From: Crambe crambe
Lineage: Eukaryota; Porifera; Demospongiae; Poecilosclerida; Crambeidae
NCBI GenBank assembly: GCA_963924555.1
Contig: OZ004583.1
Span: forward strand, 6,081,221 to 6,145,220
Reading direction: 5' to 3'
DNA length: 64,000 nucleotides
A model generated the notes under the pieces. The model did not search any database and was not told the origin of the DNA. It saw only the letters and a program-made list of their open reading frames with translations. Shown here piece by piece: positions 1-53,566 of this stretch. Numbering within the stretch: position 1 is the stretch's first letter; each line of letters begins with the position of its first letter. The translations under genes and the position numbers were made by a program.

Positions 1-144
1 TGGGTATACAGGACTTAATACGACGCATTAGACTAGAGAATGGTCTGTAGCCATTGGAATCTTTCACATTGTATATAATGTGCAATGTTGACTCCTTTGC
101 ACTCATTAGTACAGTCGTCAGGTTCTCAACTGTCATTGTGGGGT
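1..144 (-). CDS. Gene A death-fold exon DD5 (partial, cut by window edge)
   Basis: The exon begins after CTGCAG| at 145 and is open to the window edge. It starts PTMTVENLTTVLMSA, as in the gene B exon at 22762-23034. The middle differs strongly from gene B, with many substitutions and a length change, although the neighbouring intron is about 99 % identical. Confidence 0.6.
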
Positions 145-3100
145 CTGCAGGGAAAACTTGATTACTGCTAGAACTGAATGGAAATAATGACCTATGACAC
201 AATAGCTACTTTAATCACTTAAAGGGAATTGTCTATGGAAGGGATAGTTTGTGTCATGAAACCATAGAGTCATTTTGGATTCCACTGTATCCCATATGAA
301 CCATACACTGCAATTTAGTTGCTATGGCATGTACACATGCTATTGAGATCTTACAACTCTAACAAAGCATGGAAAGGGTTTTAATAGAGGGTACAAAGTT
401 GAATTCAAGCAATCCATATACACTGTTTGAGAATAAGTGTGTTCTAATTGTATTGCAGCCATACAGCTAGCTGATGGGATGTAATAGTTGACAGAGTCAG
501 TCACTATGAAATGGAAACAAGTTCCATCAGTTTACACTCAACACTTAATACAGTTCTTAAAATAGTCCAGCTATATGTACTATAATGGGAGGGGTTAAGT
601 GAGAATCTGAGAATACAATCATCTAATGAATCAATCTGGCTGAGCCAATTACAAAAACTCTGAGGAGTATGCCATGGGTAGAATCTTAATAAAGATATTA
701 GCTAGCACACAGTCAGTCAATTAGTCTAAAGTTAGGAGAGGGATGTGTGTGATGGAATAGGGGATTTCCCCTAAATTACCTGTCACTGGCTCTGCAAAGT
801 TTCTGATGCTGTCAGCATACTTGCATCGACCAGTTCTATCCATTATGCTTATGAGTTTTCTCCATGTAGTGATAGCTTGACCAGTCAGGAATTCTTCCAA
901 AGAGTAGTAGTTTTCCTCATACTCCCCCAGAAGTACATATGTATATTTCTGCACATTCTCAACAGAGAAATCTGATCCTAAAAGAGAATAATAATGTTAC
1001 TTAGTCGGGATTCTAAGCATGCAATATACGTATGCAGGGCCTAACCTTTTAAAACTCCAGGAATTATAATTCTAAGTATCAGTTCTGATATTAGATAAGT
1101 ATGAATGCTATTAATGCTACTATTAGTATGCATATGAGAAATTTTATAGGAATCCCATTCCTTAGGTTATATAGGCTAATGAGATTCTAGTGGTCACATG
1201 GTCATACCAAAAAGATATAGTCCACTTAGATTTCACTTGGTAAGTCAAAAGACAACTCAAGAGTTTCTAAACTATAGCCAGCCACTCACATCAAGATCAT
1301 TACATTCCTGGATCCTATATGGATCATGTCAATACTACTAGAATTTCTTACACTGTTAGCTTACAAAGTATCAACAAGAAATGTATCTCTCACCATTAGG
1401 AAGGTACTTTGATGCCTGTTCAGCTGCAATCTCCTCCCCACAGTGAGACAGTGCTGTCACCACATTCCCCCAGGTCACATAGGGGCACACATGGACTAGG
1501 TGATGAACGAGGGCTCCTTTCTGATCGTGAGCAGACTTGATCTGTGATATAGTATGGTCAGCGATCCCCATGTACTTTGATATGGTCTCCCAGTCCTCCA
1601 CCTCCTTTAATATCTCACTTAACAACTCAGCAGTAAATGTTGGATCTGGTAAGAGGAAAAAGTAGTCTCAAGTGTATGCCCAAGAACAGCGATGACTATG
1701 TATGTCGTACTCATCACTTTATTTATATAGCACTAAATTTTCATGGTTTGCAATAGAAGTGTGAACCTCTAATTATTTTGCAATACCACCAAATCTGCAA
1801 AAAAATTACCCCATGAAAAATTCCTGCAATATGGTAGCTTACTGTCCCCTGACCTTTTGAGAAGTTAGTCATGGCACTCTCAGCAGCCTTCATCTCTCCA
1901 ACTTCATAGAGCAGTAGGGATAATAACTTCCAAGAGGGACAACCATGACTGGTTATGTAAAAAGAGGCAGCAGCTTGTATCTTCTCCTCTCCACTTAGGG
2001 ATGAGATGCAGGAGAAAACAAACCAAGGACAGCCACCAATAGAATGCGTCTGTTTATCCAGTACAGATGACACATCTCCCTCTATCTGCATGAGTACTGC
2101 TGCTACATTCTCTACACTCAAGGTGGATTCTACAGGAGTAAACACAGCATGTTGCATGACATGGATCATAAAGTACAACCATGCAGGTTAGGTGCTATTC
2201 AGATGGCTGCATGTATGAATGAATCACACTCATCAAGACTTAGTGAAGTCTGCATGTGCTCATGCAGTCATCCTTGTATGTCTCATGCAAACATTTCTCA
2301 TAAGATAATGCATGGAGGTAAAGTATAGAGCTCATAGAGTTCCTATTGTGTAGCATTTTATTTTCAAGGAGTAGAACTTTTTTGTGGATCTTAAAATATG
2401 AAAATGGAAATTAAAACAAATACTCAAATCTTCCTACCAGTGCCACCTGACTGGGTACTGATACTAATTGTCAGTACTGAATCTGCAGTTGATCAAGTTT
2501 TAAGTGACTGTTAATTGCTCAGCCTTGCCATTTTCATTCTGGGTGCACATTATTTAGAGTACTGTGCAGCAATTAGCTGGATTGATATTTGATACAAATG
2601 TAGGCATGCATAGAGGCCGAGTTTTAAGTATGGTGAGCATGAATTGACTATAGTCAGAGCAGCAAGAAAACCAGAACACACGAATGAATATGCACATATG
2701 TATGAATATAGCCTGCTGCATAAGGGGTAGGTGCCAAGATTTGTTAAAATACTAGATGGTCAATCTGCAAAAGTTGTACAGTGGAACCTCCAATAAAGGA
2801 CCCTCCAAGAAAAGGACAACCTCCCAACAAAGGATGCTCTTTTGGGCCCCTTTCCCATAGCATTAGTACATTTTTAACCTCCGAGAAAAGGATAACCTCT
2901 CTGCAAAAACAAAGTGGCTGATCCCAAAGTGTCCTTTACTCGGAGGTTCCACTGTAATGAAAATTGAGCTCCTCCATTACAAATTACTATGTAGTATCTA
3001 TAGGTGGGCATTAATATAAGGGGTCATGATGGCAAAATAAAGTTATCTTGGCAATGGACTCTTCCAGATGATCATCACCCTGACATGCTTCAAACAATGT

Positions 3101-6100
3101 TCAAACTTATGCAACTTTCTCAGGACTTAAGCTAAAGTCAGGTCACACACATCAGGTCACACACAGAGAGACCTGAACTCTGGGCTATAATAATATCAGC
3201 TAACAATACAGTCATGCATGATGATCATACCTTGTGGTGGCTCAGCAAACTTTCTGATGTTATCAGCAACACTCTGTGGTCCTTCATAGGAAATATTATT
3301 TTTCACCATATCAAGGGCCCAAATTAGTCTCCTCCATGAAGAAGGTGCTCCCTTTCCTTCTAGCCAGGCATTGAGAACCAATGCAACACTAGATGCAGGA
3401 GCATCTTCCACTGCTAATCGTCTTTTCAATGATGCTGCCTCTATCTCCAGTATTCGTGGGATGTACTTGGTGATGTTAGGTAGTGATGTTAGAGAAAACT
3501 TGTTTACTGAGAGAAAAAAATCTTGATTGGACTTATTAATGAAAATAGCTAGTGATAGAACTAACAGATAATGATTTAGAATAAGATGTATGGATGTATG
3601 GAATAAAAGGAAGACTAGTTGTGTGATTTTACAAGGGGACAGAGCTGAGAGTCTCCTTATATGCCTACCGTAAATTGGGAAATTTTCACTGTTAAAAATA
3701 ATTTGCGGTTGGCTATAACAACGAAAATTAAACACGTGAAATATTTTCTACATAATTGGTAAAGGTAATGATACTTCAAAATAATTTTATCAACCACTTA
3801 CTCTGATCAGGATGGACTGGTGTCACCACTGGAGGAGGAGGAGGAGAAGAAGAAGGAGGAGGAGAAAGAGAAGTAGGAGAATGAGGCCGAGGAGGAGGAG
3901 GAGGAAGAGTGGAAGTACGGGAGGTCTCAGGTGCATTATTTAGATGGGGTGTGGTTAGTGGAGTGGTGTTTGGTGATGGTGATATCAGTGATGGAGTGAC
4001 TGGAGGTCTTGGGACTGATAAAACCTATAAATAATTATGGTAAAACAGTAACTTGAATCTTCTTACTTGAAGACAAGTTCTTTCATGAAACATCAAAACC
4101 TTATGGTTTGTCAGCAGACAACAATTGAGTTATTGACTGACCTCTGATCTGAGGGGAAGTGGTGGATTGGTGATGCGAGGGTTGTGCTGGAAGAGAGCGG
4201 AGTCAACTGGAGAGGAAAAGGAAGTGGGTGCAGACCTCACTAATTGGGTGGGTGGAGTCTGGAGTGGGAGCTGTGAGAATGGGTTGAGGTGGGTGGGATG
4301 AGTCGGGCCCTGTGGGTGTGGTGGAAGGGACGGGGGTTGAGTGGAGGATGAGGAAGGTGGTGAGGTGAGTGAAGGAGGCATACGTCCAGTGAAGTGAGTA
4401 GGTTGGAGGGACACCTGTAACAAGTTTGAATAGAGGTCATGTGTCATACGTAGACCACCAAGTTATAAAGAATATTCTATTTCTAATTTCATTCTGTGTA
4501 TGCTTCAATATTATTTCCAATATCTTGTACTTTTCACATTATGAAATGCACATACAATTACATAGCACGAATATTTTCTAGCTGGTTAATTTTCTTAGCC
4601 CAGCACTAAACACAAAGCTTTGTAAAGTTTAGTTTACATGATTATACATAAAGAACAACTTTGATTTGAATTTTGGACATGGCACTTAAAGTGGCTGAAA
4701 AAAAATTCTGTATGAAATCCTGGACACACTTGGACTCCTTTCGTCCTTTGTAGAGAGGTTATCCTCATATGTTTGTCCTTTATCAGAAGTTGCACTGTAC
4801 TTATGACTGGAATGTATTTCCTTGAAATTTAGACGTTGTATTTCCACACGATGTGCACAGTGTACATGTAATTATGTCCATCCCTTCAGTCTCTCATTCA
4901 TAACTTAAAGCTTTTCCATTACAACTTGATTTACTATGTATGAGGATCTCCTCCTCCCCCCTCCCACCAACCTCGTCCTGGATTGAAAATAGGGAACCAG
5001 GTGTCTTGGGTTTATGTTGTGTGTCTATTACTACTTCCAGTTATCTGGTGACCCTTGGGACCTGTCCTGGTTACAGGGGTGGCAAGTGACCCTTGGGACT
5101 TGTGCTGGTTACAGGGGTGGCAAGTGACCCTTGGGACTTGTCCTGGTTACAGTGGTGGCAAGTGACCCTTGGGACTTGTGCTGGTTACAGGGGTGGCAAG
5201 TGACCCTTGGGACTTGTCCTGGTTACAGGGGTGGCAAGTGACCCTTGGGACTTGTCCTGGTTACAGTGGTGGCAAGTGACCCTTGGGACTTGTGCTGGTT
5301 ACAGGGGTGGCAAGTGACCCTTGGGACTTGTGCTGGTTACAGTGGTGGCAAGTGACCCTTGGGACTTGTGCTGGTTACAGGGTGGCAAGTGACCCTTGGG
5401 ACTTGTGCTGGTTACAGTGGTGGCAAGTGACCCTTGGGACTTGTGCTGGTTACAGGGGTGGCAAGTGACCCTTGGGACTTGTGCTGGTTACAGTGGTGGC
5501 AAGTGACCCTTGGGACTTGTCCTGGTTACAGTGGTGGCAAGTGACCCTTGGGACTTGTGCTGGTTACAGTGGTGGCAAGTGACCCTTGGGACTTGTGCTG
5601 GTTACAGTGGTGGCAAGTGACCCTTGGGACTTGTGCTGGTTACAGGGGTGGCAAGTGACCCTTGGGACTTGTGCTGGTTACAGTGGTGGCAAGTGACCCT
5701 TGGGACTTGTGCTGGTTACAGGGGTGGCAAGTGACCCTTGGGACTTGTCCTGGTTACAGGGGTGGCAAGTGACCCTTGGGACTTGTCCTGGTTACAGTGG
5801 TGGCAAGTGACCCTTGGGACTTGTGCTGGTTACAGGGGTGGCAAGTGACCCTTGGGACTTGTGCTGGTTACAGTGGTGGCAAGTGACCCTTGGGACTTGT
5901 GCTGGTTACAGGGTGGCAAGTGACCCTTGGGACTTGTGCTGGTTACAGTGGTGGCAAGTGACCCTTGGGACTTGTGCTGGTTACAGGGGTGGCAAGTGAC
6001 CCTTGGGACTTGTGCTGGTTACAGTGGTGGCAAGTGACCCTTGGGACTTGTCCTGGTTACAGTGGTGGCAAGTGACCCTTGGGACTTGTGCTGGTTACAG

Positions 6101-8393
6101 TGGTGGCAAGTGACCCTTGGGACTTGTGCTGGTTACAGTGGTGGCAAGTGACCCTTGGGACTTGTGCTGGTTACAGGGGTGGCAAGTGACCCTTGGGACT
6201 TGTGCTGGTTACAGTGGTGGCAAGTGACCCTTGGGACTTGTGCTGGTTACAGGGGTGGCAAGTGACCCTTGGGACTTGTGCTGGTTACAGGGGTGGCAAG
6301 TGACCCTTGGGACTTGTCCTGGTTACAGTGGTGGCAAGTGACCCTTGGGACTTGTGCTGGTTACAGTGGTGGCAAGTGACCCTTGGGACTTGTGCTGGTT
6401 ACAGGGGTGGCAAGTGACCCTTGGGACTTGTCCTGGTTACAGGGGTGGCAAGTGACCCAAATTTCAGGGGTCCAGATTAGAGGGATATAGCACATGTGCT
6501 CCAAAAACATTTGTAACACGAAATCAGGATCCAGTTATTAAGAGCATGAAAATACACGTGCTAAGTCATGGCCAACACACTGTATGGGACTTCAGAATGT
6601 TACCTTATCTACATTATTAACCACCATTGTCTCTTTGTAGTAGTGTATGCTCCAAGAACCTTTGCTACATGAATATGATCTGATTACTGGGAGCGTGCAA
6701 AGCAAATATAAGCAGAACTCTATCAAAGTTTACCCACACACAGTCACAATATTTATATGGGACTTAGGGAATTTCCCCATTTCCATATACATGGTCACAC
6801 TGAGAAGCTTATCAATCCCACAAGTATGCAGTTGGTCATATTGGTCAGATTGAAGTGGGTAGAACATGAAATCAGGGCTATAGCTGCAGGACCATATGGA
6901 TGACCAGTGAAGTGGGGTGTGTGACCTACCTGAGGTGGGTGTGGTTGGTGTGAAGGATACATGCGAGTCATAGGAGGACGTGGAGGAGGAGGAGGTTGTA
7001 ATGAAGGATAGAGTGTCGGAGGAAAACCAGAAGGAGTAAGAAGTCCTGGAGGAGGGTCTGGAAGGATAAAGAGTAAAATAAAGAGGTTGTCTTTCCATTA
7101 AGCTAATTTGCCTCTTTTACTGGTGGACTTTGACCTTCCTAAAGCCTCTCATAGAGTAGTAAAAACCACACCCAATAGCTACACCCACCTGCTTAATTTA
7201 AAATGATTAGTGTATCATTTAAATATTTAAAGTCCAGGAAGATACAAAGTCATTCAATACTACCAAATTTTGATGACCATTACCTAATATCAAGATGTGG
7301 TAAGGCCAAGCTTTAATAGAGACTCCGACCCTGTTACTACTTACTGTTTGGCATTGGAAGTGTTGGAGGAGATGAGTGTGGTGGAGCAGAGACTCCTTCA
7401 GGGAGACAAGTGGGAGTGAGGGTTTCTGATGATGGGACTGGAGGGTTATAAGACATATGAGAAGTCAGGGGGTGACAATATCACAAAAAGCAAAAATAAA
7501 TAAATAAAAAATAAACGATTGGATGATAATATGTCTCCCGTAAGTGAGGGAGGTGTTAAAAAACATGGAAATCTATTTTGTCAGGTCTCACCTTCAAGCT
7601 TCTGTTGTTTAGTAGGAGGTTCTACTTCAGTTTGATCAACCTCTAAATCAGGAAATGATAAGATAATCATACTTGGTAGCTAAGTATGAAGTCCTCCTAG
7701 TCCACCATACAGGAAGAGGGTCATTATTAGACCTTTTGGTGTGAAGGAATTTTAACGAGATTCATAAGCAAAAAGTCATGATCTGGTGGCCACACCCATT
7801 GGTGGGCAAAGTTGTATAACCTTAGCAGATGGTGTTTCTCCTTTAGTGTAGATCCATTTCTACATCAGAACTACAATTCTACTATACAAATATTCCCACC
7901 AATTCACATTTTGCTTATGAATCTCTTCATTATTACTTCTCCATGGATAGTTGGAGATGAGGCTATGTGCTATCCATTATTGTTTATAGAGTATTGTAGC
8001 CAGGGATCAAACACTCAAGTAACTAGATTCTCCTTGATGGCAGTAGTTGTATAATAGCTAGCTAGCTATGTAGATGTCACAAACAACGTTCCACAACCAG
8101 TTAATACCTTTATCAGCTGCTCTAGTCTTAGTCTTGGGTCCAGGGTTCACTTCCACATCCCCAGAGAGTAACAGGATACTTATAAGGAACAATACCGGCC
8201 TGTTACGTCCTCTGGAGCGGGACTCTCCCACTACCCTCCTCCATCTCAAGCAGTTGTGCAAGTGGTGTTTGATAGCTGTACGATCATAGCTTATCTTGTT
8301 AACTTGCCACTCCCCCTCATCACACCATTGTCGCAGCAGAGACACAATCAAAGCAAACCGAAAGAATAATACGCTACCAGAACAAGATGACAT
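1..8393 (-). CDS. Gene A: 2A-leader, Pro-rich, multi-death-fold protein gene (partial, 3' end outside window)
   Basis: This is a multi-exon gene model built by hand from reading frames and GT-AG sites. In transcription order the coding exons are 8393-8108, 7642-7592, 7437-7345, 7057-6930, 4414-4142, 4024-3802, 3506-3231, 2129-1854, 1645-1394, 977-780 and 144 to the edge. All intron phases agree across the chain. The product would carry a hydrophobic 2A leader, a short basic linker, about 240 residues rich in Pro/Ser/Thr and at least five death-fold domains. By analogy with the paralog at 13-27.8 kb, a GTPase exon should lie left of the window. Death domains are protein-interaction modules of apoptosis and innate-immune signalling, so a cytoplasmic adaptor or sensor role is inferred. 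The gene structure is strong; the function is unproven. Confidence 0.7.
145..779 (-). other. Gene A intron, near-identical to 23035-23669
   Basis: No coding signal is seen. I count about six differences from the gene B intron over 635 bases, so it is a good neutral yardstick for the age of the duplication. The introns 978-1393 and 1646-1853 are likewise near-identical to their gene B partners and hold nothing else I can name. Confidence 0.7.
780..977 (-). CDS. Gene A death-fold exon DD4 (short)
   Basis: The exon is 198 bp, phase 1-1 (TTTTAG| to ACAG|GTAATT). The N-terminal half is short (SDFSVENVQKY), but the C-terminal half TTWRKLISIMDRTGRCKYAD is a typical Trp helix of a death domain. It may be a truncated death fold. 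The gene B copy at 23670-23861 differs by several substitutions and in-frame indels of 3 and 9 bases. Confidence 0.6.
1394..1645 (-). CDS. Gene A death domain exon DD3
   Basis: The exon is 252 bp, phase 1-1 (ACCAG| to AATG|GTGAGA). The domain is a clear full death domain: EILKEVEDWETISKYMGI, IKSAHDQKGALVHHLV, then TWGNVVTALSHCGEEIAAEQ. Unlike DD1 and DD5 it differs from its gene B copy (24278-24529) at only about three bases. Confidence 0.75.
1854..2129 (-). CDS. Gene A death-fold exon DD2
   Basis: The exon is 276 bp, phase 1-1 if the donor is AAAAG|GTCAGG. A stronger-looking GTAAGC lies 11 bases further on but would end in phase 0. Key pattern: STLSVENVAAVLMQIEGDV at the start, then CPSWKLLSLLLYEVGEMKAAE. 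The second-half Trp helix fits the death fold; the first half is divergent. The gene B equivalent is 24747-25022. Confidence 0.6.
2779..2954. mobile_element. 176-bp TA-flanked MITE
   Basis: The element lies in the gene A intron between DD2 and DD1. Its ends are inverted (CAGTGGAACCTCC and GGAGGTTCCACTG) and a TA dinucleotide flanks each side, as expected of Tc1/mariner- or pogo-type non-autonomous elements. A copy lies at the matching place in gene B (25671-25846), so it was present before the duplication. A decayed fragment with a similar right end lies near 4737-4800. Confidence 0.75.
3231..3506 (-). CDS. Gene A death-fold exon DD1
   Basis: The exon is 276 bp, phase 1-1, from CTCTCAG| to AAG|GTATGA. 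It carries a death-domain-like pattern: helix-forming LPNITKYIPRILEIEAASL, then SSWRRLIWALD around the conserved Trp and a final VADNIRKFAEP. The gene B counterpart (26110-26370) has about 28 substitutions and a 9-nt in-frame indel in some 245 aligned bases. The introns beside it differ by under 2 %. Confidence 0.7.
3802..4024 (-). CDS. Gene A exon 6: proline-rich, ends VVTPVHPDQ
   Basis: The exon is 223 bp, entering in phase 0 and leaving in phase 1 (CAGA|GTAAGT). It encodes 74 residues with poly-Pro blocks written by a (GGA)n-like purine run on the plus strand. Its last residues VVTPVHPDQ match the end of the single gene B Pro-rich exon (VVTPVQPDQ), so gene B joins the start of exon 3 to the end of exon 6. 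Confidence 0.65.
4142..4414 (-). CDS. Gene A exon 5: proline-rich
   Basis: The exon is 273 bp and phase 0-0, from TTACAG| to GAG|GTCAGT. It encodes 91 residues dominated by Pro, Ser and Thr, with TSPPSSSSTQPPSLPP near the middle. It probably forms a flexible linker or SH3/WW-binding region. It is absent from gene B, so this part of the linker differs between the paralogs. Confidence 0.6.
5048..6458. repeat. 38-bp minisatellite, about 37 copies
   Basis: The unit contains CCTTGGGACTTGTGCTGGTT and repeats every 38 bases, with one-base variants (TGTCC/TGTGC, AGGGG/AGTGG). Two stretches 531 bp apart are identical over about 190 bases, showing a higher-order duplication of about 14 units. It lies in the gene A intron between exons 4 and 5. 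Short apparent reading frames inside it are a product of the repeat. Confidence 0.9.
6930..7057 (-). CDS. Gene A exon 4: proline-rich
   Basis: The exon is 128 bp, from acceptor TTCCAG| to donor CTCAG|GTAGGT, entering in phase 1 and leaving in phase 0. It encodes about 42 residues with runs of Pro (QPPPPPRPP) and Tyr-Pro-Ser motifs. The phase change matches exons 5 and 6, which are phase 0 at the shared borders. Gene B has no equivalent. Confidence 0.6.
7345..7437 (-). CDS. Gene A exon 3: Pro/Ser-rich linker
   Basis: The exon is 93 bp, bounded by CCTCCAG| and A|GTAAGT and phase 1-1. It encodes PSSETLTPT followed by more Pro/Ser-rich sequence with one Cys. Its first half is nearly identical to the start of the gene B exon at 27595-27696. 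Confidence 0.6.
7592..7642 (-). CDS. Gene A exon 2: 17-codon basic linker ending KLEG
   Basis: The exon is 51 bp with TTTAG before it and GTGAGA after it, phase 1 on both sides. It encodes a short acidic-then-basic peptide, EVDQTEVEPPTKQQKLE. The gene C exon at 53196-53246 has the same length, phase and PCTKRPKLE ending, which supports both as real exons. The K-rich end could act as a weak nuclear localisation signal, but this is speculation. Confidence 0.65.
8108..8393 (-). CDS. Gene A exon 1: leader with 2A ribosome-skipping motif
   Basis: The exon encodes 95 residues from an ATG at 8393 to a phase-1 donor (AAAG|GTATTA). Residues 8-20 are hydrophobic, and a second hydrophobic stretch (residues 67-76) runs straight into LLSGDVEVNPGP. 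The last eight residues match the strict 2A consensus D-V/I-E-x-N-P-G-P, with the separation point between Gly85 and Pro86. Such motifs make the ribosome skip one peptide bond, releasing the leader and starting a second chain with Pro. N-terminal 2A leaders that double as signal sequences are known from sea-urchin NLR proteins, where cleaved and uncleaved forms go to different compartments. The same dual targeting is inferred here. A homologous leader lies at 53.4-59.9 kb. Confidence 0.8.
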
Positions 8394-9202: not shown

Positions 9203-9951
9203 TGAGTAGTAATCTTTTTCACTGTTATAGCTACATACGTACAGCATATATAACTCTACACTATATACACCTTTTGATAGGAACCATGCTGACTAGATTA
9301 GATTGTCTTCCGTGTCTCATGACAGTCATGCCTTCGAACGTTACAAATCAGGAATTTGATTGCTATTTCTGTATACAAAAGACCCATTTATTTCTTCTCC
9401 CCTTCCTTCCAGAAGAGGTCTGACTGACTACCAGTAAACTTACAGAGTGATGCTGCAGCATCCTGAGATTGAGGCAGATCGTATGAAGGTGTAGTGGATG
9501 TTCAGTAGCTAGGCAGGAATCCAGAATCTGTATTCAATGTGTATAACTACTTACTCCACATGCTCCATACTAGAGAAAGGTCAACAAGCTACTCATTCAA
9601 CAGGTTTCCTCGGCATTTCTTGTTTCGTTTATATCAACAGGAATTGACTAGCTACATTCGGCAAGACTAGATCTTTGAGGGCGTGTACTTTTGTTTCTCA
9701 ACTAGCTATGGGCATGCATGCGCCAATGGCAGGAGTTTAAAATATTTTTTTCTATTTCAGTGATAACAATAAAGTATATAGTTACTTTAAATTCTAAACT
9801 TTAGCTGCAGGTGGTTGATCAGCTCTGGGGAGGTCACACATCATGCTGTAACAAAAAAAATCTATTATGACATCTGGGGAGCTTCCATAGGTAGCTATGC
9901 TCATTGAGCATGGTTTGGTCAACAATTAAAGTGTTGTATGTAGTCTCTCAC
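9203..9951. other. No gene seen
   Basis: Intergenic sequence between the MITE and the death-domain relic. Short open frames here show no recognisable motif or splice support. Confidence 0.5.
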
Positions 9952-10207
9952 CTTTCATATACTTGGTGGTCACATCCTCAGCAAGTGCATGGTAACCTGC
10001 ATCACTGAGTGCCCTGGCATATCCATCCCAATCAAGAGCAGGGTTAAGGCACACCATGATCTCAGCCAGGGCCTGCTTAGGTGCAGTTCTCACTCAACTT
10101 GATTCTGTCTATTAGTGATTCAGGAAGAGAGAGAAATAGTGTAACTTGATCCCAATCTTCCACTTCCTCTAACACCTTGCTTATTCTCTCAATGCTGAAG
10201 TTAGAAT
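9952..10207 (-). pseudogene. Frameshifted relic of death domain exon DD6
   Basis: Homologous to the gene B exon at 22295-22540, with matching acceptor and donor (CTTTCATAT before the GTGAGA-type site). It reads SNFSIERISKVLEEVEDWDQ, then hits a stop after a 2-nt deletion near 10095. The other frame resumes with APKQALAEIMVCLNPALDWD. There is also a 12-nt in-frame insertion. Flanking intron similarity reaches the DD5 border near 10530, so this is a decayed piece of a third array copy. Confidence 0.75.
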
Positions 10208-10899
10208 CTGTCAATGATGAATATGAAGATTACTCTCGATCATTCACTCCTATTTACATACATATGTATGTACTTACTTATCCATGACATTTCAGGGTAA
10301 GTTACAACTGACTATGGCTAACTATCAAACTTTTGTGACAGAAACTACCTGCATTCAAACTTAAGATGGCAGGAATAGATGATCATCCTCTCATCTATTC
10401 GTACATACAGGTTTAGTTTAGTAAAGTGAGCACTGTATTAATAGTGGGGGGAATATAGTGTTTTGCACATAGCTACATGAGCTGCACTGCTATGCATGCC
10501 TATTGTAATGGATCACTAACAACGCACGGTCAATCTAGCAGCCGACCCTTTACCTCCAAAAACCAGGCTTCTCTAGTATACTAGCATGAAATAACTTTTA
10601 AAACCAATGACTTTAAAATCTCATTAATTTTCTAGCACTGAAGCAGTTTTCGTTCCAGTTACACTTCAAAATAGTCCTATCAACAACAACTTTACTCACT
10701 ATTATACCATTTGGCCAAGCAAAGGAAGCTAGCTGGTTTTACATGAAATGTGCCATGTGTTATTTTCAAATTGAATCATGTTTGCCCCCGAGAAACAACT
10801 AATCTATTCGGCATGAGGGAAAAAACTTCAAAAAAAAAGAAAGTAGGAACGAGCCAAAAAATTAAGCAGGTAGGGATAAGGAAGGAAGTGGGGTATGTC

Positions 10900-13055: not shown

Positions 13056-13072
13056 TCAGATGAAGTAGTACC
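13056..13072 (-). CDS. Gene B possible last coding exon
   Basis: After the donor at 13138 the next acceptor (TTGCAG|) gives five codons and a TGA in the phase required. No clear AATAAA follows soon after. The true 3' end may lie elsewhere. Confidence 0.3.
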
Positions 13073-16000
13073 CTGCAATGCTAAAACAAGATACAGTTGC
13101 TGTCATGACTGTGTCATTAAGTAATAATTTATACTCACATTTTGATATTTTGTCAGCTGTTCCTTTCTGACCGATCTCGTCTAGAGCTTTTATCAAACTC
13201 CTCCAAGTGGGCTGACCACTAGTGGCAAGGACATTGTCAGCTCCATTTAACCAGGCTTCCACTAATTCTTTACAGAGGTATTTCATCATCTTGAGATTTG
13301 GCCAGTACAATCCAAGAGCTCCACCAAGATCCAGAAGTTGATTTTCAGTCAGGTCTCTCAAGCACATGGACACTTGATGGTGGTGAGTCATAGCTGCACG
13401 GTGAGTAGAACAGTACAAAATATCTTGATAGTAGCTTTTCAATATAGCTAACTGGGCTATACAACTGGGGACACTTACCCAGAGCAGTATTCAAAATTGA
13501 TGGCTGAACTTCTTGGATTGCTGAAACTGGCACACTGCATTCTGAAAGGGTGAGACTTCATTAAACTGTAAGCTAGCAAACTGTGTATAGCTATACATGT
13601 GCCTACACAAAGTTTTGGGATATTATTATTATTATTATTATTGTTATTATTATTATTATGTAATGTGACCAACTCTCCTCCCCTGCTACAATAAGGACAA
13701 ACATTCCTATGAGAATGAATACAAAATAACTTATTCATACGGCAAATGTTACCTTTTAATGAATCATTACTTCCACATAATTTTTCATCCACTATAAAAG
13801 AAAAAATAATAATTTAGAAGGAGAAGAAGAAGAAGAGAAGAAAGAAGAGAAGAAGAAAGAGAAGAAAAAGGAGAAGAAGAAAAAGGAGAGAAGAAAAAGG
13901 AGAAGAAGAAAAAGAAGGAGGAGAAGAAAAAGGAGGAGGAGAAGAAGAAGAAAAAAGAAGAAGAAGAAAAAAGAAGAAGAAAAAGAGGAGAAAGAGAGGA
14001 GAAGAAGAAAAAGAAGGAGGAGGAGGAGAAGAAAATAAGAAGAAGAAGACGGAGAAGAAGAAGAAACTAGCTATCAGTATGGGTGAATGGAAATCTACAT
14101 TAGCTATAATTAAATATGTACATATTATGATAATATTATTACTTTATTTAATACACACCTTTAGGTCGAAACCAGACCAGGTTGTCTTCTGATAAAATAC
14201 AGATCTCGTGTTTTTTACTGCAGTACATGAAGTAGTCTGCTTGCACCCAGCCTTGATATTTAACACGATGATTCAATGAACACAGTTCACACTTGCAACA
14301 GAAGTAATGTTGGGTCTTGGTACTGTCGTAGTGAAGATCCTCTACTGAAGAATGGATGCTCTTCTCTATAACTTTACGAATATCGTTACATAGATAACTG
14401 ATGTGAGTGTGTTTTGATTTGCGTCCAGATGGATGTAGAATTACTTGCAAATGGGATGCAAAGAATTTAAGAGTCACTCGATCTTCATAGCAACCGACAC
14501 GGAATAATACTTGGTCCCTGAATATGAAATCTGGAAGAAGTTCCCATTTGAACCAGCTTTTGAGACTAGTAGTGATCAAGGTGTTTATTAAAACACCGAA
14601 TATCCCCTTAGGGCAGTGATTACATTCAAACTCAATGTAGAGTGTGGGGATACTGGATACTTCGTCAGGAGTTTGTGACGCCTGGACATGGTTAAGGACA
14701 CATGGGATGAAATACTGGTCTTCTTTATCTCTTGATGTGGTGATTTGTGATATGATGCGGAGATGTACCAGTAATTGCAAGAATGAATTTGGATCGATGC
14801 CATCTTCTGCTGTTATCACTTTCTTGAAAACTGAAGCAGAAATGATGCCCCTATGCTTAAAATCAGAGAGTTCTTGTCGAAAAAGCCGATTTGAAGAAAA
14901 TGTCTCAACAATAAGATCTGTAACTTTATTGAAAAGCACTTGAGGTTCTCGTACGACGATGTCAAGCAAGCCTTTGACAGGAAAATACTTGATCCTTCCA
15001 ATTCGGGTATGGAGAAATTGCAACAGATGCTTCACTTGGTCTTTACTGATGCCATACTGAGCAGCTAGAGCCACACATTCATCAAAAGAAACTATGCTCT
15101 TCTTCAAATTTTCCAAATCAAGGCTGAACTGCATGTAACTGATAGGATAGTCAATGGCAAACTGATCTCCATCGATTACTATTTCACTGACTCGTGATCG
15201 AATGCATTCAAAGTCCTCTTCACTCTTGCTGTAATTATCAACAGTGAACATCAACCTGTTGGATTGCTGATCTGCAAACTGAACCAAGTGCTGGTATCCA
15301 TGCCTATTGATTAAATCATTCAACTGTCGGTCTATCTCACTGATTTTCTCTTCAGCATTGGAACCAAGCAGATCCTTGTGTGTGCCTACGATGAAAACTA
15401 GAGGTTGGTAGGTCTTGACTTCATTTTGGGCAGTTATGTCCATGGCATCGATACTAGCAAGGCACTGCAGCAGAGCATCCTCTGTGCTGATGGAAGATAC
15501 ATACGAATTGATAACTGTTCTGTCTTTTTTTCGATACGATATTTTGAATTTGCTGCGGAGATCTTGATCGATGCGAAAGAGGAAGAAAAATATGGATGGT
15601 CCAGATATCAGGAGAGGCACCATCTCTTGGAACTCCACTTGACCACCAGTATCAGTCAAATAAATTGAATAGGAGTTCTTTAGATACCTTTGAACTCTGC
15701 TGTAGCCATATTTTCTTATTACAGACGAAATGTTCTGGATTGATGGTGGAGGTGGTGGTTGCAAGAGTTGTCTCCTTGAGAGATCTACTCCATCACTTGT
15801 TAACATTTCTGAAGTGGCAGAGCCACTGGTTTGACATGGATTTGCAGACTGTGATACAAGTGGAGATGCTATTGGTTGAGGTGGAGCAATCGTAGTGGTG
15901 CTAGTCTGCACTGGTGATGCACTCTCACTAGCAGTGGATGGTGCAGGAGGAGGCACTGCTTTGGGTGTCATTGTTTTGGGTGTGATTGTTATGCTTTCCT

Positions 16001-19000
16001 TGTTCATTTGCCTCACAACAGACACCTCAAACTCGGCTTCGGACCACTCTCCAGTCTGTAGTAGAACTGTAACTGATGCATGTGTGGCAGAAGAATCTTC
16101 TATTCCAACATCCACTATAACGACAGGTTCACAGACACCAGTGGAGGGAGAGAAGTCCTTTAGTTCTTTGCGAACAAGGCGAGTGATTAACGAACTCTTT
16201 CCAGAACCAGGAGAGCCTAGAAAGACAGAATGTACTAATTTTCGTTTTATCGCTCCAGATTTGTTGATGGCTTCTTGAATCACTTCGAGAAATTCTTTTT
16301 CATCTACTTCATCCTGACCAGAATCGTGGTCTCCTACAAGTATAGTAAGAAACCATTAATAAAATGTTTCTGGACAGATAACATACTGATGTGGTGACTA
16401 TAATTAGTATATTTTATATTGTAATCATTACTAGGCAACATTTGACAGCAAGCAAGAGAGCAAGCATTTCTATAGCTTTTAGAGCTGATAGGCTCCAATT
16501 AGTTTGTACTGAAAGACTGTGGATGATACTGGGAAAAATCTTCTTTCTGCATGTGCAAGCTCATCAGCAGTCTTATAGAGGCACCTGCTAAACTGAATGT
16601 GACAAGCTATCAAGCTAGCACTATGAACCCAAGCCATCAGTTCTACACTTGGGTCAGAGAACCCAGAGACACCAGAGGTTAGCAATGAAAGGAAAGTAGC
16701 TGTCTTTACACAACTCTAAAGTGGCCATGATTGATATGGACAGAGTCATAATCTAAGCAACAGTTAGCCTTCAGACTTAGGATTTTCTACTGTTAGATAG
16801 CCTCTATTGATATACTGCAAATGCAAAAAATTTCTTCTAAATAATAATGCTAAATAGGGGTGGCCCCAAATTCAGCTGGACTATGACTGCAGCATCATAT
16901 CAAACCAAGCCGTATGGCCCCAAAATCTACGCACTTTGACTGCAGCACATATCAAACTGGGCTTGGATTGATACGATGTTGAAGTCAAAGTAGTACATAA
17001 TCTAGCTAGATTTTTTGGGGCCATACGGCTTGGTTTGATAATTACATGGCCCAACTTTTACCAGTCAGATTTCATGACGCATAATGGAATCCCCATACGA
17101 GTGGGGTCCAGTAACCTTCCATTTTAAGTAAACCAGATCACCAACAGCAGACGTACAAAGAGGTTTCTTTGAATCATGCAATTGTTTCTGCATTAACTGT
17201 TGATTTTGAACTTTTGGTGTGAAATAGTAAATCAAGTCTGGATCAAAGATGACGACCAATAAGAAGTTCTGCCGGATAGAACTGTCTTTGATACTTTTGA
17301 TCCCCAATTTGAATGACTGGATTGTTAACAGGTAGAGGTAGCTACAGGTTTAGCCCTGGAAATATGCTAGCCAGTATGGTGGAGGTGCAGCTGCTTAGGG
17401 AGCTCAAGCAGAAAGTGACCGAGTCAATTGTTCACCCCATCAAGAAGGACTTCATTGAAGGATTAAAAAGAAAAAAAAGTACCGAGGATGGTGATGTGAA
17501 AGTCTTGCCATGGAGAAAGCAAGGCAGACCACTTCTCCTTGGAGAACATTTGTACCGTAGAGTTCAGTTATATTTGAAGTTAGGGATAAATCATTCAGTG
17601 AACCAATACAGCAGTTGCTAAAAGCGAGGTCAAAATAAAGTCCAATTTTGCCTCCCCCCCCCCCCAAAAAAAAGAAGAAGAAAAACATATTTCAAACACG
17701 GGTTCCAGTTTAGCTAGACTTCGAGGGATAAAATTACTCTAGCAAAATTCAAACCTTTTGATCACATGGCAAGAGCTCTCGATTCATTACAGTTCATTCA
17801 AACTGGCTGCTAGAAAACAGCTGCTAAGATCGGTCAATTTTTTTGGCTGTATTACACCTATGGGGGACACATGTGGAGGAAGAAAATGTTTCCCATAGGC
17901 ATAATACATGGAGCAAAAAAATATTTTCAATTCAATTTTGACTGGAGCAGTAGCTAGTTTCTGAAAATGAGGACAGTATTCCACTGACTCAGGCCAGTCT
18001 GCCAAATGTGACTGGATTTAAAATTTCTTGCAAGTTGTTAGAGCCTGTTAAAGTTTAAAAGCCACATACAAAATGTACATGAACTTTGATAATGAACCAA
18101 ATTGGTTTTGATCTTGATAGGATTGATTCTGAATTCATAATAATTATGCTTATCTGCGGTGAAATTGTACCTTTCAGAACAGTGTATTTTATAAAATCAA
18201 CACCTGCTTTGAAGAAGATAATATATATGTGTGTAGACCATGTTCTAATTATAAGAACAATACTTGCTTCAAAATATTTCAAAAAGTTTTCAGATTCATA
18301 CCTTTGAGCCTGGTATCCAAGCAATAAAACATTTTAATATGAAGTTGATTAGTGTGTTGACCTGCTTTGAAACATTAGTCTATTTGCTTGTCCTTTAATC
18401 AACACTCTATCAGCTGTGTGGGTAGCATGATGCTTTCTTGATATTTGACTTGTAGATTTAGAAATAGACTGTTGCGATGAATTAAGGAAGGGAAATCTGT
18501 GTGTAACTAATGAAGTAAGCCAGTAGACTTCTAACTGGCATGAAAGTGTGGTAAAGCTAAGAAGCAACTGTCTATACAGTAGCATAGGAAGATGATTTAG
18601 AGACCTCCCAGGAAAGTTTGGTGAAATCTGATGGGAATTTTAGCATAAGTAGTGCAAGATGATTTCTTAGAGAAATGAAAATTTAGCCCAGCTGGACTGG
18701 CCCTTATAAAGCAAACCAGTTCTTCTTGGAGAACGTTTGGACAGCAAAGTTCAGTTATACTTGAAGGTCAGGTAGGGAGCATCAGCTAGGATTGTAATGG
18801 TAGCTGGGCATGGAATTTTATAATAAAAACAAATTAGAGGAGTTCGGAGGTCACATCTCTCTATCTCAACATTGCTCCTAAGTTTGTTCCAGCTAATGGA
18901 CCTATCGGTCCACAAACCAACCAGCTAAAGAATTTCATAGGGGTAAGTTCCAGCAACTACTCAGAAGAAGTAATGAAGCAAATAGAGGGAGAAGATATTG

Positions 19001-22000: not shown

Positions 22001-25000
22001 ACCCCCAGGAAAATATTGGATTTTAGGTTTAACCTGACATAAGAAGCACAAAATAAGAGTAAGAAAATTAAGCTCTCAAATCACCAAGCTGGACTGGCCC
22101 TTATGGGGTAGCTATGTTTGCTAACTTGTTACCACATACACAATATTCACAGATTCAAAATTCATAAAAACTTTCTGTACATAATATGCACAGTATGTGA
22201 AACGTAATGAAACCATGCATGACTGTAATAGCAGCAACATTACCCCTTTAAGTTTCAATGCTAATAGGCAGTTATTGGTGCGTGTAAGTCTCACCTTTGA
22301 CATACTTGGTGGTAACATCCTCAGCAAGTGCATCGTAACCTGTATGCCTGAGTGCCCAGGCCAATCTCTCCCAATCAATAGCAGGGTTAAGACGCACCAT
22401 GATCTCAGCTAAGGCTTGCTTTGGTGTAGTACTCTCACTGGACTTGATTCTTTCTATTAGATGTAAATATCGTGCCACTTCCTCCCAATCATCCACTTCC
22501 TCCAACACCTTGTTTATTCTCTCAATGCTGAAGTTGGAATCTGTCAATGATGAAATGAAGATGTACAGGTATAATTATTCCAACATGATTACTCAAAAAC
22601 TAAGTGACTATCCCATGCATTGTAGAATGAGAATTAGAATAGTATTGTGCACATAGCTACACATCATACATGAGTCAATAAATTTCCCCTACAGCATGTG
22701 CACACCTGTACTGATCATTCTGGCTATAGCTGTAATGGATCACTAAAAACAACTAACTCACCTCTAGTACAATAATAACAAGCTTTAAAGGCCACATCTA
22801 CATCTCCATAGAGTGCAGCTGCAGCAATTGCCTTCCAAGTAGGTTGATCTGGATAGCTACTGATGTAACACATGGCAGCTGCCTTCACTTGCTGCTCCAC
22901 ACTGGGTATACAGGACTCAATATGATTCATTAGATCATAAAATGGTCTGTCCCAAACTATGGATATAATGTCCAATGGTGACTCCTCTGCACTCATCAGT
23001 ACAGTCGTCAGGTTCTCAACTGTCATTGTGGGGTCTGCAGGGGAAACTTGATTACAGCTAGAACTGAATGGAAATAATGACCTATGACACAATAGCTACT
23101 TTAATCACTTAAAGGGAATTGTCTATGGAAGGGATAGTTTGTGTCATGAAACCATAGAGTCATTTTGGATTCCACTGTATCCCATATGAACCATACACTG
23201 CAATTGAGTTGCTATGGCATGTACACATGCTATTGAGATCTTACAACTCTAACAAAGCATGGAAAGGGTTTTAATAGAGGGTACAAAGTTGAATTCAAGT
23301 GATCCATATACACTGTTTGAGAATAAGTGTGTTCTAATTGTATTGCAGCCATACAGCTAGCTGATGGGATGTAATAGTTGACAGAGTCAGTCACTATGAA
23401 ATGGAAACAAGTTCCATCAGTTTACACTCAACACTTAATACAGTTCTTAAAATAGTCCAGCTATATGTACTATAATGGGAGGGGTTAAGTGAGAATCTGA
23501 GAATACAATCATCTAATGAATCAATCTGGCTGAGCCAATTACAAAAACTCTGAGGAGTATGCCATGGGTAGAATCTTAATAAAGATATTAGCTAGCACAC
23601 AGTCAGTCAATTAGTCTAAAGTTAGGAGAGGGATGTATGTGATGGAATAGGGGATTTCCCCTAAATTACCTGTCACTGGCTCTGCAAAGTTTCTGATGCT
23701 GTCAGCATACTTGCATCGATCAATTCTATCCATTATGCTTATGAGTTTTCTCCATGTAGTGATAACTTCACCAGTCAGGAATTCGTCCAAAGAGTAGTAG
23801 TAGTTTTCCTCATCCTCTACAAGTACATATTTCTGCACATTCTCAACAGAGAAATCTGATCCTAAAAGAGAATAATAATATTACTTAGTCGGGATTCTAA
23901 GCATGCAATGTACGTATGCAGGGCCTAACCTTTTAAAACTCCAGGAACTATAATTCTAAGTGTCAGTTCTGATATTAGATAAGTATGAATGCTATTAATG
24001 CTACTATTATTATGCATATGAGAAATCTTATAGGAATCCCATTCCTTAGGTTATATAGGCTAATGAGATTCTAGTGGTCACATGGTCATACCAAAAAGTT
24101 ATAGTCCACTTAGATTTCACTTGGTAAGTCAAAAGACAACTCAAGAGTTTCTAAACTATAGCCAGCCACTCACATCAAGATCATTACATTCCTGGATCCT
24201 ATATGGATCATGTCAATACTACTAGAATTTCTTATACTGTTAGCTTACAAAGTATCAACAAGAAATGTATCTCTCACCATTAGGAAGGTACTTTGATGCC
24301 TGTTCAGCTGCAATCTCCTCCCCACAGTGAGACAGTGCTGTCACCACATTCCCCCAGGTCACATAGGGGCACACATGGACTAGGTGATGAACGAGGGCTC
24401 CTTTCTGATTGTGAGCAGACTTGATCTGTGATATAGTATGGTCAACGATCCCCATGTACTTTGATATGGTCTTCCAGTCCTCCACCTCCTTTAATATCTC
24501 ACTTAACAACTCAGCAGTAAATGTTGGATCTGCTAAGAGGAAAAGTAGTCTCAAGTGTATGCCCAGGAACAGTGGTGACTACGTATGTCGTACTCATCAC
24601 TTTATTTATATGTATCATATAGCACTAAATTTTCATGGTGTTGCAATAGAAGTGTGAACCTCTAATTATTTTGCAATACCACCAAATCTGCAAAAAAATT
24701 ACCCCATGAAAAATTCCTGCAATATGGTAGCTTACTGTCCCCTGACCTTTTGAGAAGTTAGTCATGGCACTCTCAGCAGCCTTCATCTCTCCAACTTCAT
24801 AGAGCATTAGGGATAATAACTTCCAAGAGGGACAACCATGACTGGTTATGTAAAGAGAGGCAGCAGCTCGTATCTTCTCCTCTCCACTTAGGGATGAGAT
24901 GCAGGAGTAGACAGCTGGAGGACAGCCACCAATAGAATGTGTCTGTTTATCCAGTACAGATGACACATCTCCCTCTATCTGCATGAGTATTGCTGCTACA

Positions 25001-28000
25001 TTCTCTACACTCAAGGTGGATTCTACAGGAGTAAACACAGCATGTTGCATGACATGGAACATAAAGTACAACCATGCAGGTTAGGTGCTATTCAGATGGC
25101 TGCATGTATGAATGAATCACACTCATCAAGACTTAGTGAAGTCTGCATATGCTCATGCAGTCATCCTTGTATGTCTCATGCAAACATTTCTCATAAGATA
25201 ATGCATGGAGGTAAAGTATAGAGCTCATAGAGTTCATATTGTGTAGCATTTTATTTTCAAGGAGTAGAACTTTTTTGTAGATCTTAAAATATGAAAATGG
25301 AAATTAAAACAAATACTCAAATCTTCCTACCAGTGCCACCTGGCTGGGTACTGATACTAATTGTCAGTACTGAATCTGCAGTTGATTAAGTTTTAAGTGA
25401 CTGTTAATTGCTCAGCCTTGCCATTTTCATTCTGGGTGCACATTATTTAGAGTACTGTGCAGCAATTAGCTGGATTGATATTTGATACAAAGTAGGTATG
25501 CATAGAGGCTGAGTTTTATGTATGGTGAGCATGAATTGACTATAGTCAGAGCAACAAGAAAACCAGAACACACGAATGAATATGCACATATGTATGAATA
25601 TAGTCTGCTGCATAAGGGGTAGGTGCCAAGATTTGTTAAAATACTAGATGGTCAATCTGCGAAAGTTGTACAGTGGAACCTCCAATAAAGGACCCTCCAA
25701 GAAAAGGACAACCTCCCAACAAAGGATGCTCTTTTGGGCCCCTTTCCCATAGCATTAGTACATTTTTAACTTGCGAGAAAAGGATAGCCTCTCTGCAAAA
25801 ACAAAGTGGCTGATCCCAAAGTGTCCTTTACTCGGAGGTTCCACTGTAATGAAAATTGAGCTCCTCCATTACAAATTACTATGTAGTATCTATAGGTGGG
25901 CATTAATATAAGGGGTCATGATGGCAAAATAAAGTTATCTTGGCAATGGACTCTTCCAGATGATCATCACCCTGACATGCTTCAAACAATGTTCAAACTT
26001 ATGCAACTTTCTCAGGACTTCAAGCTAAAGTCAGGTCACACACAGAGAGACCTGAACTCTGGGCTATAATAATATCAGCTAACAATACAGTCGTGCATGA
26101 TGATCATACCTTGTGGTGGCTCAGCAAACTTTCTGATGTTATCAGCAACACCCCGTGGTCCTTTATACATATCTTCTATCGCATCGAGAGTCCAAATAAG
26201 TCTTCTCCATGAAGGAGGTGCTCCCTTCCCTGCTAGCCAGGCACTGAGAACCAATTCTACACTAGATGCAGAAGCATCCTTCACTGTTAATCGTTTTTTC
26301 AATGATGCTGCCTCTATCTCCAGCATTTGTGGGATGTACTTGGTGATGTTAGGTAGAGTCAACTGTGGTACTGCATGGAAACACAAAATTATAGAACACA
26401 TGATCACTACATGATCCAGTCAGAACATAATACCAGACAGTTCACCATTGCAGTGCATACCATGGTTAGTACATCACTGCTCACTAAACATAGAGATAGT
26501 ACATTACTACACACTGTACTTCACTCCACACCATATAGGAATAGTACTTCAGGATTTTATGTGGGGGGAGGAATTATAGGGAGGTTTGTGAGGTTATAGG
26601 GGGGCAGGAAGTCTTGATGTCATTATTATTTTAGACCTTGGTTACATGTGATTTGTGTATGTAATATTAGCAAGTTTAACTTTGATGTGTGTACACTGAA
26701 AGTATGTGCAACACATTTACATAGTTCTCTTGATACACACCCCTAAGGAAGATATGGGATCATAACTGCATGACAATGAGATGCTGAAGAACCTGAACAC
26801 TTCAGCTAATATCTGTCTTCTATTGTTGTTGAAATAGAAAGACAGACCACAGATGAAGATAGAGAAAACTCGTTTACTGAGAAAAAAAAATCTTGATTAA
26901 ACTTATAAACAGTTAGTGATAAAACTAATAGATAATGATTTAGAATAAGATGTATGGATGTATGGAATAAAGGAAGACTAGTTATGTGATTCTACAAGGG
27001 GGCAGCTGAGGGGGGAAACCCTCTTGAAAGAAACCAAGATCACTGCACACCATAATTATAGGGATAGTACATCACTACACACCATATAGGGATAGTACAT
27101 CACTGCACACCATATAGGGATAGTACATCACTGCACACCATATAGGGATAGTACATCACTGCACACCATATAGGGATAGTACATCACTGCACACCATATA
27201 GGGATAGTACATCACTGCACACCATATAGGGATAGTACATCACTGCACACCATATAGGGATAGTACATCACTGCACACCATATAGGGATAGTACATCACT
27301 GCACACCATATAGGGATAGTACATCACTACACACCATATAGGGATAGTACATCACTGCACACCATATAGGGATAGTACATCACTGCACACCATATAGGGA
27401 TAGTACATCACTGCACACCATATAGGGATAGTACATCACTACACACCATATAGGGATAGTACATCACTGCACACCATATAGGGAGATTTTCAGCTCTTCC
27501 AATTATGAGGATTTCAGCAAGGTGACTCTTAAATAATAAAATATATCTCGGGTATAATCTTTAGGGTAAAAACTGATAACTTATAACCACTTACTCTGAT
27601 CAGGCTGGACTGGTGTCACCACCTGCGGCACAGGAGGAGGAGGAGCTGGAGATGAAGCAGACATTTCTGTGGGAGCGAGGGTTTCTGATGATGGGACTGG
27701 AGGGTTGCAAGGCATATGAGAAGTCAAGGGGTGACAATATCACAATTATTCATTGAGAAATTGCATGATTGGATGATAATAAGGTGGCAATAAAACTTTT
27801 ATTTTTGGCATAGTAATAGAACAATCCTTACACTTGTTTAGCTACATTTTGCTCAATCTTAGGCCAGGCAAAGTTGCCAAACTACAGTGATGGTTTTGAT
27901 CATCCAAAGGGACTAAATGAACAAAGTCTTGGGCATGGTAAATAAATTTCGGCCACCACTCAAGAATCCTGGGCAGAACTTTGTAAATACATCAACTGCC

Positions 28001-31535: not shown

Positions 31536-31603
31536 AGCTCACTAGTTTGCAAGTGCGTTTTGATAGATCTCAAATTCAGTCTACCCTCGATCGAATAGTC
31601 AAG

Positions 31604-53246: not shown

Positions 53247-53396
53247 CTATAATAAGATTATCATAACTTCTTAGGTATGAAAGGGCTGCTTTACATATAA
53301 AAAGGTGATCTCTCCAGTTAATCAAGATAATTAATACCATATAATTATTCAGCCAGAGATGCTGACTCCAAGGCGTAGTTGTATGATAGCCAATAC

Positions 53397-53566
53397 CTTT
53401 ACCAGCTGCTCTAGTCGTCATACTCCTAGTCTTGGGTCCAGGGTTAAGTTCCACGTCCCCAGAGAGTAACAGGATACCCAGAAGGAACAACACTGGCCTG
53501 CCTTTTCCTCTGGAGTGGCGAGTCCCTGGTCTTTCCCCCACTACCCTCCTCCATAGTCTCACTTTC
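53397..53566 (-). CDS. Gene C exon 1b: 2A motif
   Basis: The exon is 170 bp from acceptor CCCTTAAG| (phase 2) to AAAG|GTATTG (phase 1). It reads KVRLWRRVVGERPG, then a hydrophobic stretch into LLSGDVELNPGP. The strict 2A consensus is intact; skipping would fall between Gly96 and Pro97 of the joined leader. In gene A the same coding is a single exon. Confidence 0.75.

Follow-up and report, generated by a model that had tools for sequence, protein, structure and literature searches.

Within a 64,000-nucleotide stretch of the sponge Crambe crambe (contig OZ004583.1, called C5 here, positions 6081221-6145220; hereafter the window), two copies of one gene, A and B, lie on the minus strand, each with an array of exons predicted to encode death-fold-like domains (DD1 to DD6). 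In five of these six exons, a few codons carried an excess of amino-acid changes, and DD3 and a Roc-COR GTPase exon were constrained; exchange between copies combined with diversifying selection very probably accounts for this pattern. An earlier note, made from the sequence of the window, had claimed that the death-fold exons outpace their introns in divergence and had proposed diversifying selection or domain replacement as the cause. The first claim was borne out by alignment of the two copies and the pattern returned in 16 copies, and signs of both proposed processes were found, namely site-model results in five exons and exon exchange.

Copy A (1-3510) was aligned pairwise with copy B (22903-26500). 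Differences amounted to 6/635 in intron 4 (145..779, 0.9 %), 8/416 in intron 3 (978..1393, 1.9 %), 5/207 in intron 2 (1646..1853, 2.4 %, plus gaps of 1, 9 and 1) and 16/1086 in intron 1 (2130..3230, 1.5 %, plus gaps of 1, 1 and 14), a range of 0.9-2.4 %; the earlier hand counts for introns 4 (about 1 %) and 1 (1.6 %) were close. Exon DD1 of gene A (3231..3506, with two main hypervariable blocks) differed from its B counterpart at 30 of 248 bases over 3231-3484 (12.1 %) with a single 6-base gap, so the earlier count of about 28 substitutions was close and its 9-nucleotide indel was not upheld. The visible 5' half of the hypervariable DD5 (1..144, acceptor and donor read; the remainder lies left of the window) was worse than DD1, as had been said, with 19/132 differences (14.4 %) and a 12-base gap. 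Hypervariable DD4 (780..977) differed at 15 of 192 bases (7.8 %) with a 6-base gap and joins the variable set too, DD2 (1854..2129, hypervariable only mid-exon) at 12/276 (4.3 %), and the conserved DD3 (1394..1645) at only 3/252 (1.2 %), nearly unchanged as previously described. The gene B exons, placed by alignment, are DD6 (22295..22540), DD5 (22762..23034), DD4 (23670..23861), DD3 (24278..24529), DD2 (24747..25022) and DD1 (26110..26370, acceptor inferred by eye at TTTCCATGCAG), all on the minus strand. Alignment of the two copies broke down at A 3484, towards the 5' edge of DD1, and A 3484-3649 matched B 26854-27010, about 500 bases further on, a spacing that many other copies have in common with B. 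About 500 bases at this edge thus appear to have been lost from copy A (3484-3506 versus B 26357-26854), so that A and B would use different DD1 acceptors; in 15 copies the true acceptor is probably internal to DD1 as aligned.

The genome (143.14 Mb, 119 contigs) was searched for further members of the family. The intron of copy A gave long matches at no fewer than 19 places in the 4.57-6.36 Mb interval of C5 (best 40 of 546 candidates scored), with arrays in both orientations across 1.8 Mb of one chromosome. With the DD3 protein, 18 full copies were recovered at 94-100 %, and a further one, at 87 %, belongs to an array at 4.58 Mb that has diverged more; DD1 returned 19 open full-length copies, one fragment and one relic, and DD5 returned 18 full and two partial copies. 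All first-look candidates were scored for these three exons and every match lay on C5; no donor cassette outside the C5 cluster was found in the genome searches with DD1, DD3 and DD5, DD2, DD4 and DD6 not having been searched singly. Alignment counts below refer to 16 of the 19 arrays, as L020, L023 and L027 (interrupted or incomplete) were dropped beforehand, and the region past DD6 (from R 6860), where the alignment breaks down, was excluded.

Across these 16 copies, mean pairwise distances were 0.111, 0.049, 0.019, 0.125, 0.103 and 0.077 for DD1 to DD6 and 0.029, 0.045, 0.032, 0.025 and 0.007 for the introns in gene order from DD1 to DD6. Relative to pooled introns, DD1, DD4, DD5 and DD6 were thus 2.8-4.6 times as divergent, DD2 1.8 times and DD3 0.7 times, ratios that were little altered by omission of any single copy. 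The exon exceeded the pooled introns in 119 (DD1), 119 (DD4), 118 (DD5), 112 (DD6), 103 (DD2) and 37 (DD3) of 120 pairs, and DD2 lay above both flanking introns in just 67/120; same-length intron windows reached exon diversity in 0/1327 (DD1), 0/1596 (DD4), 0/1309 (DD5), 0/1417 (DD6), 18/1327 (DD2) and 840/1399 cases (DD3), where neither pairs nor windows are independent since copies are common to pairs and windows overlap. In a 30-base diversity profile, narrow hot spots within exons reached 0.1-0.27; towards the exon ends diversity came close to that of the introns, which mostly stayed below 0.05, with some 30-base stretches at 0.09-0.10. Introns and the framework parts of the exons vary little among copies. 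The variable blocks of DD1, DD4, DD5 and DD6 lie before a conserved W and between this W and a conserved A, and that of DD2 is essentially only the one before the W, its variability being confined to the middle of the exon. In-frame local duplications were also seen by eye in exons. Equal divergence of exons and introns was ruled out by both comparisons. Assembly error confined to the exons was likewise ruled out, as 16 copies show it, every one of their frames being open, and the assembly (odCraCram1.1, HiFi) has a quality value (QV) of 58.1 (PMC12166358).

Selection was assessed by whole-exon ratios and by site models. Pairwise ratios of nonsynonymous to synonymous divergence (dN/dS) were 0.72, 1.35, 0.65, 1.15, 1.14 and 0.98 for DD1 to DD6, and silent divergence was also raised inside the exons (A versus B in DD1: dN 0.175, dS 0.267), so that whole-exon ratios were not clearly above 1. 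The elevated dN/dS in DD1 and DD5 that the earlier note had named as support was therefore not clearly obtained when the check was run (0.72 and 1.14). Positive selection argued from whole-exon dN/dS alone was set aside as insufficient, with ratios of 0.65-1.35 and raised silent divergence in the exons. The proportions of nonsynonymous and silent differences (pN and pS) were 0.205 and 0.146 in variable blocks and 0.031 and 0.059 in frameworks; since amino-acid variety was the criterion that defined the blocks, there is circularity in the pN contrast, which does not affect that in pS.

Site models M1a and M2a were then compared using our own code with a simple optimiser, after merging identical rows to leave 14-16 rows per exon. 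Twice the log-likelihood difference (2dlnL) was 46.8, 120.0, 2.9, 88.6, 109.9 and 70.6 for DD1 to DD6, all but the DD3 value being significant, and the positive class of the other five exons had an omega of 5.5-25 and held 9-26 % of codons. Restriction to gap-free columns gave 43.8, 120.0, 64.7, 59.3 and 79.7 for DD1, DD2, DD4, DD5 and DD6, and 45 codons across these exons had a posterior above 0.95. For comparison, 15 recombinant nulls were simulated by permuting labels every ten codons, for DD2, DD5 and DD6 only and with five runs apiece; their 2dlnL ranged from 0.7 to 22.4 with a second-largest value of 9.4, and all five positive exons exceeded 22.4. The selected codons specify many charged and aromatic residues, and their diversity at positions 1, 2 and 3 was 0.456, 0.406 and 0.286. 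Pure mutational hot spots are disfavoured by this codon-position pattern, with the reservation that the same data had served to choose those codons. Free of that circularity is the comparison of fourfold sites, whose diversity was 0.071, 0.041, 0.069 and 0.011 at 0-2, 3-6, 7-15 and at least 16 codons from selected codons, a pattern that fits linked silent variation in selected exons, yet is non-monotonic.

The Roc-COR exon served as a control, using 8 of about 18 close copies picked among the open ones. Its omega was 0.23 (dN 0.074, dS 0.317), dN exceeded dS in 0/28 pairs, and the exon is thus under purifying selection in these copies. Its silent divergence rose from about 0.05-0.2 in the first third to about 0.5 at the 3' end. 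With silent divergence at 0.317 only a few kilobases away, DD-block introns are unusually young and the block has been homogenised; the contrast between exons and introns therefore has a second cause, young introns.

Exchange was evident from the distances themselves, and signs of recombination pervaded the copies. Rank correlations of pairwise distances between neighbouring exons were 0.05 (DD1-DD2), 0.02 (DD2-DD3), 0.57 (DD3-DD4), -0.16 (DD4-DD5) and -0.05 (DD5-DD6), and sequence distance correlated with genomic distance by at most 0.13 in any region, so that proximity on the chromosome did not predict similarity. Exons contained 213 of the 305 informative sites, 44.9 % of biallelic site pairs were incompatible, and a local value as low as that observed arose in 0/500 permutations. 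Only two shared tracts passed the permutation limit, one of 1256 bp spanning DD5-DD6 (L018/L019) and one of 476 bp spanning DD4 in two copies that are inverted and 513 kb apart (L011/L015). The latter pair was near-identical in DD1 (0.007), DD2 (0.004) and DD4 (0.000) and unlike in DD5 (0.091) and DD6 (0.100); L011 agreed with L021 in DD6 alone (0.000), and L014 and L026 were alike in DD5 (0.007) and DD6 (0.008) and unlike in DD1 (0.190) and DD4 (0.338). Exons are thus reassorted between copies, even those hundreds of kilobases apart. Minisatellites with units of 38, 28 and about 156 bases were seen at window positions 4896-about 6600, 26973-27568 and 60376-62683; the first two lie about 1.4 kb (A) and 0.6 kb (B) upstream of DD1 and could promote exchange.

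The structure of the exons suits such exchange. All six lie between AG and GT at the aligned borders, are in phase 1-1 and have lengths that are multiples of 3, a symmetry by which exchange of a whole exon leaves the frame intact. Every one of the 96 exon instances in the 16 copies was in frame and stop-free although in-frame indels are common, with lengths of 183-216 bases in DD4 and 246-294 bases in DD6. Downstream on the same strand, a Roc-COR exon of 735 residues was found in 16/19 arrays, with phases compatible by eye with those of the DD exons; in unit B it occupies 14148..16355 (minus strand, open reading frame (ORF) limits). Its COR-A match (E 6e-10, 39.6 bits) is above the cut-off of 35.3 bits and its Roc match (E 1.6e-4, 22.3 bits) below that of 27, and because COR adjoins Roc in one frame we assign it to a predicted ROCO class whose Roc half rests on the sub-threshold match. 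Unit B also has an ORF with a C-terminal death-like exon, DD7 (13056..13490, minus strand), which had no Pfam match by itself. A genome search with 13110-13370 yielded at least 150 matches spread over many contigs, one of them the query (150 of 314 candidates were scored), which as read from sequence would represent a very large death-domain expansion.

Upstream, the probable first exon of gene A (8108..8393, minus strand) has an ATG, a hydrophobic stretch followed by an N-terminal 2A-like D(V/I)ExNPGP motif, here GDVEVNPGP, and a phase-1 donor. This exon and a second one at 53392..53553 (minus strand) contain the 2A-like sequences LLLSGDVEVNPGP and LLLSGDVELNPGP, respectively, with a signal-like hydrophobic stretch. 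The second, identified as an ORF with genome matches, may serve gene B as its first exon; it lies 27 kb upstream of that gene, on the far side of a retroelement. The 2A-like exon had 28 genome matches, query included, and 13 of these lay upstream of DD arrays, on the same strand and within 30 kb of 13/19 arrays, consistent with its being the N-terminus of the DD-array gene. Two proline-rich open frames on the minus strand, 3801..4024 (candidate AG and GTAAG sites) and 4138..4415 (candidate acceptor), are probable gene A exons with tentative boundaries.

It is likely that the array is the variable N-terminal region of a 2A/six-death-fold/Roc-COR/death-domain protein, and that exchange has kept its copies alike everywhere but at the selected codons. 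The predicted layout would comprise a 2A-like start, a proline-rich part, six death-fold-like domains, the Roc-COR GTPase and a C-terminal death-like domain. Frequent ectopic exchange would homogenise a 4-kb block, and diversifying selection would maintain differing residues at exposed positions, exposure being suggested by the residues used at the selected codons, so that each copy might present its own combination of binding faces. The variable death folds may contact varying non-self or allelic partners, with the Roc-COR switch and the C-terminal death domain relaying the signal onward, and the genes could then amount to a germline-encoded set of receptors or scaffolds in the cytosol. Whether they serve recognition, be it immune, in an arms race or self/non-self, we consider evenly balanced. 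A sensor role would be in keeping with a sister cluster on C3 (7.48-7.83 Mb) of about 20 Roc-COR genes, whose GTPase matches that on C5 at 47-51 %: in the one C3 gene read (L029 4053-6810), ankyrin repeats and a ZU5 domain replace the death-fold array before the GTPase, and the DD array thus sits where its relative has a binding array, a position that by analogy supports such a role.

Several observations weigh against this interpretation, beginning with the fold itself. Pfam Death (PF00531, curated cut-off 22.6 bits) matched DD3 (17.7-18.2 bits; E 0.0027 in gene A) and DD6 (17.3-18.4 bits; E 0.0025 in gene B) below cut-off, and the Pfam scan gave no Death match for DD1, DD2, DD4 and DD5; no leucine-rich repeat (LRR) profile matched among the DD exons scanned. 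AlphaFold models were all-helical and poor (mean per-residue confidence (pLDDT) 59.9 and 55.6), too poor for the variable codons to be placed on the fold, the best Foldseek match for the DD6 model, the one submitted, was Fas/FADD at E 2.0 with none below 0.001, and a profile search of PDB sequences returned no death domain, only chance-level matches. The gene model is also incomplete in places, as the GTPase was not found downstream of 3/19 arrays (best 61 of 608 GTPase candidates scored) nor the 2A exon upstream of 6/19, and it is order, strand and phase that suggest the 2A exon, DD exons and GTPase to be a single gene. The Roc-COR exon of copy A, left of the window (C5 6072659-6074783, L028), is split over two frames of 348 and 420 residues, so that copy A may be damaged; its DD exons are open, as is the Roc-COR exon in most other close copies listed. 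With regard to selection, the modest whole-exon ratios and raised pS in the blocks leave the signal invisible without a site model, and the site models assume a single tree per exon, with nulls that cover DD2, DD5 and DD6. Of these recombinant nulls, 7/15 were above 5.99, the nominal 5 % threshold, and the highest stood at 22.4, so recombination inflates the test, though short of the observed size. Finally, DD2 as a whole barely exceeds its flanking introns (0.049 versus 0.029 and 0.045).

This inflation is an argument for an improbable alternative in which selection is absent, exon blocks having been imported from older paralogues by conversion while introns were homogenised, with the site signal a recombination artefact. 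The silent divergence of DD1, DD4, DD5 and DD6 (0.09-0.15) does lie between that of the introns (0.027) and of the GTPase exon (0.317), as such imports would predict. However, the observed statistics of at least 43.8 surpass the largest null of 22.4, codon positions 1 and 2 exceed position 3 at selected codons, fourfold sites up to 15 codons from these remain at 0.04-0.07, and the conserved DD3 is located in the same block. The codon-position pattern also speaks against a specialised system, germline or somatic, that would mutate the exon blocks or copy sequence into them, comparable to gene-conversion antibodies or diversity-generating retroelements, since third positions vary less than first and second at hot codons. 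Hot spots sharply bounded within exons and the in-frame duplications noted by eye would suit such a system, yet the searches with DD1, DD3 and DD5 turned up no reservoir of donor cassettes beyond the C5 cluster, and we consider it very improbable. Assembly error or decaying pseudogenes are barely credible as an explanation: the split GTPase exon of copy A and the presence of some relics (the DD1 relic and a stray DD6) point that way, but all 96 DD exon instances are open, the GTPase exon is under strong purifying selection in 8 copies, and the HiFi assembly has a QV of 58.1.

A different function for the same variability is also conceivable, though we think it rather unlikely. Each paralogue might form private homotypic death-fold assemblies whose interfaces diverge against cross-assembly, with no foreign ligand involved. 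Variable blocks flanking the conserved W could be interface patches, judging from general death-fold geometry, and cross-assembly would be a real problem for copies that are near identical elsewhere. On the other hand, some copies have an identical DD4, DD5 or DD6 in common, which such insulation should disfavour, and the mapping to the fold relies on poor models. At the other extreme, it seems doubtful that the death folds have turned into antibody-like hypervariable recognition domains that form a germline combinatorial Roc-COR repertoire and a candidate self/non-self locus of the sponge. If this were true, recognition would have been taken over by an adaptor fold, in convergence with brown algae, whose exon-shuffled LRR-ROCO genes are built around the same GTPase. 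The locus is defined and testable, with named codons to genotype. To our knowledge, the genes for graft and fusion recognition in sponges are poorly known.

Death folds are normally conserved signalling adaptors, and hypervariable recognition usually resides on immunoglobulin, LRR, TPR or similar binding folds. MHC, lamprey VLR and Dscam-type genes use extracellular binding folds with variable codons in a conserved framework and exchange between copies. The sponge genes resemble these in the latter two respects and differ in that their fold is signalling-adaptor-like and their variation is read from one haplotype.

The closest analogue is the shuffling-exon LRR-ROCO family of brown algae (Teng 2024, PMC11378527; Zambounis 2012 as cited there), in which Roc-COR likewise follows a module array with one module per exon and constant phase, exons are shuffled and few codons are under diversifying selection by M1/M2-type tests. 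An immune-receptor role has been proposed for these genes and is unproven (PMC11378527). Unlike the algal modules, which are LRRs on 72-base phase-2 exons, those of the sponge are death-fold-like, of 60-105 residues on phase-1 exons, and the sponge gene, from an animal, has six modules in fixed order in 16 copies, and would start with a 2A-like sequence and end in a death-like domain. The 2A-signal NLRs of sea urchin (Roulston 2016, PMC4981915) are similar in their N-terminal 2A-like and signal-like stretch and in forming a family of cytosolic receptors that carries death domains and has expanded; they have a NACHT switch and LRRs, whereas the sponge switch would be Roc-COR and its 2A is predicted from sequence. 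Expansions of Death-like and TRADD-N domains in marine invertebrates including Amphimedon (PMC8195603) resemble the present family as sponge death-superfamily expansions with fast-evolving parts and a proposed role in immunity, but there the death-superfamily unit precedes a variable, fast-evolving C-terminus. In its available part, that report has no hypervariable death-fold array before Roc-COR. Among the titles and abstracts returned by our searches of the open-licence literature, none describes such a system.

Further features of the window include retroelement ORFs at 31538-35712 (plus strand), reverse transcriptase-like and tyrosine-recombinase-like by eye, which separate gene B from the exon that may be its first. 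A death-like ORF without a Pfam match was recognised by eye at 45435-45743 (minus strand), ending in PPTWKALVVAVSERIGGNNRALAEQIARNHKTS. Finally, a decayed stray copy of DD6 lies outside an array at 9946..10238 (minus strand); it matches 22289-22562 at 83 %, loses its frame after 42 codons and contains several stops.

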